NCBI RefSeq assembly: GCF_002886185.1
Contig: NZ_KZ614146.1
Span: forward strand, 131,927-195,926
Length of the DNA: 64,000 nt
From: Salipaludibacillus neizhouensis
Lineage (GTDB): Bacteria > Bacillota > Bacilli > Bacillales > Salisediminibacteriaceae
Direction: 5' to 3'
Below are positions 23,213 to 24,143 of this stretch, one piece after another (the stretch's first letter is position 1; each line of letters begins with the position of its first letter). Below the pieces are notes generated by a model. The model was given only the letters and a program-made list of their open reading frames with translations. It was not told the origin of the DNA and searched no databases. The position numbers were made by a program, and so were the translations under genes.

Positions 23213-23500
23213 AACTAGAAATATTATTATTTATAGGTCTCTATAAAATCCGAACTTTGTTTTTTAAGAATCCTTGAGACCCTGGTGAGCGGATTCGAGC
23301 AAACACACTGTTCTAATTAAAGTAACCAAATTCAAGTAAATACCCTTCCTAAAAATAACATTCAATGAACGAAGTCTTTAATAAAAGACGGCTCTGCCGT
23401 TTTTCTTATAGTCACAATGTTTATAACATCCTGTTTCCTTGTGAAGATCTTCGTTTAAATGGTAATCTAGGATATAGTAATTCAAGAAAGGGGTTAAATA
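23213..23500. other. Intergenic region with repeat fragment, no gene
   Basis: It contains GGTCTC/GAGACC arms around 23237-23282 and the repeat-1 fragment at 23377. No ribosome-site-linked frame was found. Confidence 0.55.
23377..23409. repeat. Repeat family 1, terminal fragment
   Basis: TTTAATAAAAGACGGCTCTG then CCGTTTTTCTTAT matches the end of copies A and B with one loop change, and forms the same ACGGC/GCCGT hairpin. Confidence 0.7.
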
Positions 23501-24019
23501 ATGAAGAAATTAATGTTTCGTGGCATAAGTGCTGTATTATTCTTATTAATTGTTACAGCTTGTGCTTCTGATGATGAATCCGGAAGTGAATATAATGCTG
23601 ATGATTATGACTTTACTCTGTTGAATTCGGCAGGAGAGGAAGTTGATATTTTTACTGATGAAAAAGCATTGTACCTGTATTTTACTGGAGTCACCTGACA
23701 ACAATGTTTATCTCAGCTAGTTCAGCTGAACTCAAAGTTAGAAGAAATTGAAGAACTTGGTTATTCGGTTTATGCGATTAGTCCAAGTGATCCAGAAAGC
23801 CACTTAACACTTCGAGAAGTGAATGGATTGGAATTTCCGGTGCTGTCAGATACAGATTACGCAGTGGGAGTTGAATTTGGCTTCATTGAACTGGAAGAAG
23901 AAGCAGTTTACCGAGGTTTTACCGCCGTTAATCCCGAGACTGAAAAGATGACTACTAGGATTGATTATTTAGTGGGAGACAACTTTGAGGAATTATCGGG
24001 AATTTTAGAAGACCTTTAA
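23501..24019 (+). CDS. Peroxiredoxin/thioredoxin-fold lipoprotein with in-frame UGA at the redox Cys position (Sec or interrupted gene)
   Basis: Reading through the TGA at 23696-23698 gives one 172-aa protein in a single frame. A lipoprotein signal ends at VTAC (Cys21), followed by an acidic linker and a thioredoxin-like AhpC/TSA domain. The segment around the TGA is YLYFTGVT-TGA-QQCLSQLVQL, which matches the F-x-G-x-x-C-x-x-C-x-x-Q-L pattern of peroxiredoxin-like proteins with the TGA exactly at the first cysteine. The downstream part (VYAISPSDPESH, FPVLSDTDYAVGVEFG) is intact. A 6-bp hairpin with a G in its loop lies 14 bases after the TGA (23713). Selenocysteine and a simple nonsense mutation both fit. 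Without recoding only 65 residues would be made. The ribosome site is AAAGGGG. Confidence 0.7.
23713..23729 (+). promoter_or_regulatory. Candidate bacterial SECIS hairpin
   Basis: TCAGCT pairs with AGCTGA around the loop AGTTC. The loop starts 20 bases after the in-frame TGA and has G at its second position, within the usual limits for bacterial SECIS elements. The stem is short and could occur by chance. Confidence 0.35.
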
Positions 24020-24049
24020 GGGAGTTTTCTTCTTCCATATAAAAAAATG

Positions 24050-24118
24050 TTGTTTGGAAGAATCCGCGAGACTCCTGCGGATCATCCGCGGAAAGGGAGC
24101 GATAATTCTTCCAAACAA
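24050..24118. repeat. Interspersed repeat family 2 with 14-bp inverted ends
   Basis: TTGTTTGGAAGAAT and ATTCTTCCAAACAA bracket a core with ACTCCTGCGG and CCGCGGAAAG. The core resembles a repeat I know from many Bacillaceae genomes. It lies between convergent genes. Confidence 0.75.
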
Positions 24119-24143
24119 CCTTTGATGATAAAGATGTAGGAAA

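Follow-up and report, generated by a model that had tools for sequence, protein, structure and literature searches.

The window, a stretch of 64,000 nucleotides from the genome of Salipaludibacillus neizhouensis, contains a gene interrupted by one TGA codon (Table 1). With the TGA translated as selenocysteine (Sec, U), the gene encodes a protein of 172 residues that begins like a lipoprotein and contains an AhpC/TSA domain (PF00578, 54 bits against a cut-off of 26). The TGA is flanked by 66 and 106 codons and is the only in-frame stop before the terminal TAA; the original prediction had described an otherwise intact frame with a single TGA at this position, and both the coordinates and the count of stops were confirmed. 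Reading with translation table 11 splits the gene in two. Thirteen frames of the window contained one TGA with 45 codons or more to either side, and the UxxC motif was found only in the gene described here, where the context of the putative Sec is YFTGVT-U-QQC-LSQLV (motif FTGxxUxxCxxQL).

The hexapeptide LIVTAC at the end of the signal peptide is presumably a lipobox. Its Cys21 was conserved in 90% or more of 26 aligned family members and was invariant in an alignment of 14 rows. An inverted repeat is located 3′ of the gene, with GCGAGACTCCTGCGG as the spacer between its arms, and may be a terminator or else a repeated element.

Table 1. Features at and around the TGA-containing gene, in positions of the window.
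Feature	Position	Strand	Basis
Ribosome-binding-like stretch 5′ of the ATG, AAGAAAGGGG	23484-23493	+	Predicted from sequence
Candidate selenoprotein gene, 172-residue Prx-like UxxC lipoprotein	23501-24019	+	Translation with TGA = U; PF00578
Start codon ATG	23501	+
Predicted lipoprotein-type signal peptide, LIVTAC ending at Cys21	23501-23563	+	Cys21 conservation
UGA, putatively read as Sec, residue 66	23696-23698	+	TGA in 79/79 aligned genes and 13/13 more
Cys69 codon, second residue of UxxC	23705-23707	+	TGT or TGC in all aligned rows
Predicted bacterial SECIS hairpin, loop AGTTC	23713-23729	+	6 pairs, covariation, bSECIS limits
Hairpin 5′ arm TCAGCT	23713-23718	+
Hairpin 3′ arm AGCTGA	23724-23729	+
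GTG-started frame downstream of the UGA	23819-24019	+
Stop codon TAA	24017-24019	+
Inverted repeat, whole	24049-24119
Inverted repeat, first arm GTTGTTTGGAAGAAT	24049-24063
Inverted repeat, second arm ATTCTTCCAAACAAC	24105-24119

Fold and relation to known redox proteins

An AlphaFold2 model computed with the window protein and 13 relatives (pLDDT 86.9) displayed a single peroxiredoxin (Prx) fold spanning the UGA, with residue 66 between the strand 56-60 and the helix 67-77. In a Foldseek search of the PDB the PrxQ/BCP proteins ranked first, and AhpC and ResA lower. The original prediction held that the UGA takes the place of the first cysteine of a redox motif. Profile alignments bear this out relative to the CPxC redoxins, whereas relative to the BCP-type peroxiredoxins the UGA falls on the Thr of TxxC and the cysteine that is kept corresponds to the peroxidatic Cys.

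PF00578 was matched by all 26 members of the family (E 0.001 or better), but the window protein reached no cut-off among the NCBIfam models. The two peroxiredoxin models gave 32.6 of 140 and 21 of 272 bits and the ResA family model 21.8 of 170. For the other 25 members the best NCBIfam E-value was 2e-10, and it is likely that none of them reaches a cut-off. Weak matches were also obtained with two redoxin models that include selenoproteins, the SelL-related redox protein (NF040769, 17.6 of 120 bits) and the TUGYCR redoxin (NF053656, 14.6 of 100 bits), and the window protein is a member of neither.

In Table 1 of PMC13188914, PF00578 proteins with UxxC or UxxU are entered as 'Prx-like thiol:disulfide oxidoreductase', with the status of a high-confidence prediction. 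By domain and motif alone (PF00578, UxxC) the window gene is assigned to this group. The features shared with this group (PMC13188914, PMC1794560; type sequence WP_010940744.1) are the AhpC/TSA domain, the Sec of UxxC and a predicted thiol-disulfide exchange. Unlike the group at large, the family found here consists of predicted lipoproteins, was confined to a single order in our scans and had no Cys form that we could see. We class it as a Bacillales lipoprotein subfamily of the known Prx-like UxxC selenoproteins. Our literature search found no description of this lipoprotein in the texts covered, and an earlier listing in supplementary tables is possible.

Two other kinds of protein invite comparison. 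The selenocysteine peroxiredoxin (PxxxTxxU) has the AhpC/TSA fold in common with the window protein, in which, however, the Sec occupies the Thr position, three residues before the equivalent of the peroxidatic Cys, and the Pro and Thr of the motif are absent; neither PxxxTxxC nor PxxxTxxU is found in its FTGxxUxxC. TlpA and ResA resemble the window protein in their predicted extracytoplasmic location, their Trx-like fold and the presence of two redox residues two apart, but differ in having a Cys where the window protein has Sec.

The product is accordingly described here as a predicted membrane-anchored UxxC oxidoreductase of AhpC/TSA fold. After export and lipid modification of Cys21, it would be anchored on the outside of the cytoplasmic membrane. 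Since a Sec-x-x-Cys pair without the Pro and Thr of the peroxiredoxins points to thiol/selenol-disulfide exchange, Sec66 and Cys69 may carry out such an exchange at that site. The main competing idea is a membrane-anchored selenol peroxidase rather than a thiol-disulfide reductase acting in the assembly of copper sites or cytochromes. PF00578 and the first rank of PrxQ/BCP among the fold matches speak for a peroxidase, but the replacement of the TxxC Thr by Sec, the missing Pro and scores far from the NCBIfam peroxiredoxin cut-offs make it rather unlikely, if still worth keeping in mind.

Distribution of the gene and of the selenocysteine machinery

The host genome (5.51 Mb in 11 contigs, 99.95% complete) contained selA (534.4 bits), selB (369.9 bits) and selD (418.4 bits, cut-off 125), all above their cut-offs, together with a gene for tRNA-Sec at C1:1987768-1987860 (59.2 bits, cut-off 47), the only one of 15 matches above the cut-off. 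ARAGORN called it SeC with the anticodon TCA. The lack of sel genes that the original prediction had named as an objection to itself therefore does not apply. All four genes form one cluster about 1.8 Mb from the window gene on the same contig, in which selB adjoins the tRNA-Sec gene, and selD, itself UGA-containing, and a SelW-like CxxU gene are located between selA and selB.

Several other features of this genome were observed. The SelW-like selenoprotein gene (L009:7938-8210, minus strand) encodes CMQU and scored 62.5 bits against a cut-off of 34.2, and selD (L009:8325-9380, plus strand) has its UGA in KAGUGCK. The gene immediately 3′ of the tRNA-Sec gene (L009:12049-13059, plus strand) encodes what we take to be a tyrosine-recombinase-like product. 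A second, weak tRNA-Sec-like match at C1:2000083-2000189 (L002) remained below the cut-off of 47 with 42.7 bits, and ARAGORN detected no tRNA there. On contig C2, a further TGA-containing gene (L100:2879-3469) encodes an AhpC/TSA-type UxxC protein with GUPYC; it resembles the SelL-related redox proteins, with 102.2 bits against that model's cut-off of 120.

In a scan of 35 genomes of the family, a close homologue of the window gene (E < 1e-34) was present in 26, each with exactly one internal TGA at the same residue. The scan of the order at E 1e-12 identified 78 TGA-bearing places in 74 of 397 genomes. Altogether 92 homologous genes were read (79 aligned and 13 more, which equals all 78 places of the order scan and 14 further genes of the family scan), and every one had the TGA followed by a Cys three residues on. 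The residue at this site is hence UGA and not Cys among the homologues, and the TGA is not peculiar to the strain. Down to the limit of E 1e-12, the 397 genomes of the order yielded no Cys form. Each of the 19 rows of the order scan without a stop, none of which exceeded 53 bits, was read; their motifs were like those of BCP, AhpC or the CPxC redoxins, family names that we assume from the motifs.

A profile search of genome contigs with the family alignment gave 13 named loci, all 13 with the TGA and all repeating genes of the family scan. Loci of Salipaludibacillus aurantiacus, S. daqingensis and S. keqinensis among them matched genomes of the genus without difference across 70 bases around the site, and Evansella and Alkalicoccus supplied relatives; the same search with the window protein alone gave no relative. 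In the scan of the phylum only 2 of 398 genomes had matches, both within the same order. The plasmid search returned six records with distant partial matches (three of Rhizobium, two of Azospirillum, one of Bradyrhizobium), none of which covered 80% of the query. Four genomes (G061, G147, G270 and G406) contained two TGA copies of the family, with differing sequences around the site.

Nine pairs of homologues were used to estimate dN/dS, and three of them were saturated in synonymous change. Downstream of the UGA the ratio was 0.09-0.18 in five close pairs, three of which share L031-L033, and 0.145 in a sixth, more distant pair. In the close pairs computed, the part of the gene that follows the UGA is under purifying selection.

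The original prediction regarded Sec use as rare in Bacilli. This is not so in the order, where selA was above the cut-off in 181 of 397 genomes and the Sec trait is common. All 74 genomes with a TGA homologue in the order scan had selA, and none of the 216 genomes lacking selA had the homologue (Fisher 2e-30, a value that overstates independence, as the genomes are related); 107 of the 181 selA genomes were without it. In the family scan selA was above the cut-off in 28 of 35 genomes, including 24 of the 26 carriers of the gene. The two carriers without selA (G006 and G018) were 80% and 76% complete, and four genomes had selA without the gene (G011, G015, G016 and G021). Within the genus, five of eight genomes had both and three had neither.

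The hairpin downstream of the UGA and the reading of the codon

The hairpin begins 14 bases after the UGA, as originally described, and has a G at position 2 of its loop. Its loop of 5 nt, stem of 6 bp and UGA-to-loop distance of 20 nt are within the limits for bacterial SECIS (bSECIS) elements given in section 5 of PMC13188914 (loop 3-9 nt, stem 4-16 bp, distance 16-37 nt, G within the first two loop positions). The same section sets the folding energy at -7.5 kcal/mol at most; we calculated -7.5 kcal/mol for a 51-nt piece that includes a second small helix and -7.2 for a 38-nt piece. Taken alone the hairpin of the window is no more stable than shuffled sequence (z = -0.06; 82 of 200 shuffles of the 51 nt at least as stable). 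A single sequence is thus unremarkable, and the significance of the hairpin comes from the comparison across species.

This comparison was made on an alignment of 79 rows, 77 of them distinct, giving 462 cells for the six pairs, with 500 shuffles as control. The stem was paired in 98.3% of the cells, and in only 6-40% when shifted by 1-3 columns. Cells with a double change numbered 46 (shuffled mean 16.7) and the covariation score was 0.272 (shuffled 0.107), both values being reached by none of the 500 shuffles. Two of the five measures were within the range of the shuffles (both-sides-changed pairs 500/500, further pair types 431/500). Four of the six stem pairs were invariant, and the outer pair 18-34 was broken in 8 of the 77 rows and in 2 of the 13 added genes.

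In column pair 21-31 the Gln72 wobble base is opposite the first base of Leu76. In the 77 distinct rows this pair was GC in 53, AU in 18, GU in 6 and never broken, with all changes synonymous. Counted over 85 rows (6 of them duplicates), the Gln codon CAA was always accompanied by Leu TTG (19/19), and CAG by CTG in 60 and by TTG in 6; in the same rows codon 75 was always GAG or CAG (GAA and CAA did not occur) and the loop-position-2 G was invariant. The 13 further genes kept the loop G and the pair (11 GC, 2 AU), one of them with AAG at codon 75. The hairpin is conserved by synonymous compensatory changes.

With this support from the sel genes, the conserved UGA, the co-occurrence with selA, the covariation and the purifying selection, the window gene very probably encodes a selenoprotein, as had been suggested for a candidate at a redox site. 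The hairpin would direct SelB and tRNA-Sec to decode UGA codon 66 as Sec. Because related species keep both the UGA and the RNA hairpin, the gene appears to encode a real selenium-containing redox protein and not to be broken.

A very improbable alternative is that translation terminates at the UGA and that two separate products are made, a short lipopeptide and a downstream domain with its own start. A GTG-started frame does lie in the 3′ part of the gene (Table 1), and a start codon soon after the UGA occurs in some homologues, such as L024 (codon 1) and L043 (codon 4). The first in-frame start in the window, however, does not come until 41 codons past the UGA, too late to include the conserved residues Cys69 and Gln72-Leu73. 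In other homologues the first start ranges from codon 1 to 42, except for 4 of 26 that lack one within 45 codons; moreover, the model is one fold across the UGA, and the occurrence of the gene tracks selA. Readthrough by a near-cognate tRNA inserting something other than Sec is about as improbable. Leaky reading of UGA is known in Bacillus, but it is at odds with a hairpin of bSECIS geometry kept by compensation and with selA in every order-scan genome that has the gene. Nonsense mutation, which the original prediction held to be a serious alternative, sequencing error and a split gene are practically excluded: TGA is one base from TGT or TGC, and CPxC redoxins with Cys at this place occur in the same fold family, but a pseudogene does not agree with TGA in 92 of 92 homologues, the absence of a Cys form at E 1e-12 or the low dN/dS after the UGA.

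Gene neighbourhood and possible function

In 17 of 53 distinct loci at the order level, ctaG and sco, genes for copper assembly of cytochrome caa3, were found upstream on the same strand (9 of 19 loci with flanks of 1.5 kb and 8 of 34 with flanks of about 4.5 kb; six further fetched loci were duplicates). Pfam named one ctaG and one sco, and the remaining copies were found by BLAST with these two. The distance from the end of sco to the first possible start was -5 to 104 nt in all 15 loci fetched from two of the order's families (f3 and f35), and sco was more distant in L107 (f42, 604 nt) and L110 (f45, 538 nt). Neither the window nor the 13 named loci of its family have this neighbourhood, nor do the other 36 of the 53 loci. 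The host genome has two Sco genes, both located away from the window gene. Nearly every genome checked in the order has Sco (98 of 101), so that its mere presence is uninformative and was dropped as evidence.

According to the cited sources, no TlpA homologue exists in B. subtilis, and in B. halodurans ctaG lies next to sco. Since ctaG-sco immediately precedes the gene in other families of the order, the most probable specific substrate would be cysteines, either those of Sco or those of the cytochrome c oxidase CuA site, and the protein would then have a TlpA-like role; we offer this assignment tentatively, as our first choice among functions but at somewhat less than an even chance. Still less probable is the fuller proposal, in which the protein is a Bacillales counterpart of TlpA that depends on selenium: a Sec-obligate, membrane-anchored reductant of copper-site assembly (Sco/CuA) for cytochrome caa3. 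We consider it possible and no better than doubtful.

A gene of this kind is easily missed, as the table 11 reading halves it and its product meets no NCBIfam cut-off. For Firmicutes/Bacillales, Table 2 of PMC1794560 recorded three selenoproteins in three families in 2006. Against these few records, the window gene suggests that a selenoprotein family is widespread in Bacillales. The ctaG-sco context in related families provides a testable link between selenium and the assembly of cytochrome oxidase. If the protein is a Sec-obligate TlpA counterpart, the biogenesis of a respiratory oxidase would be partly selenium-dependent.
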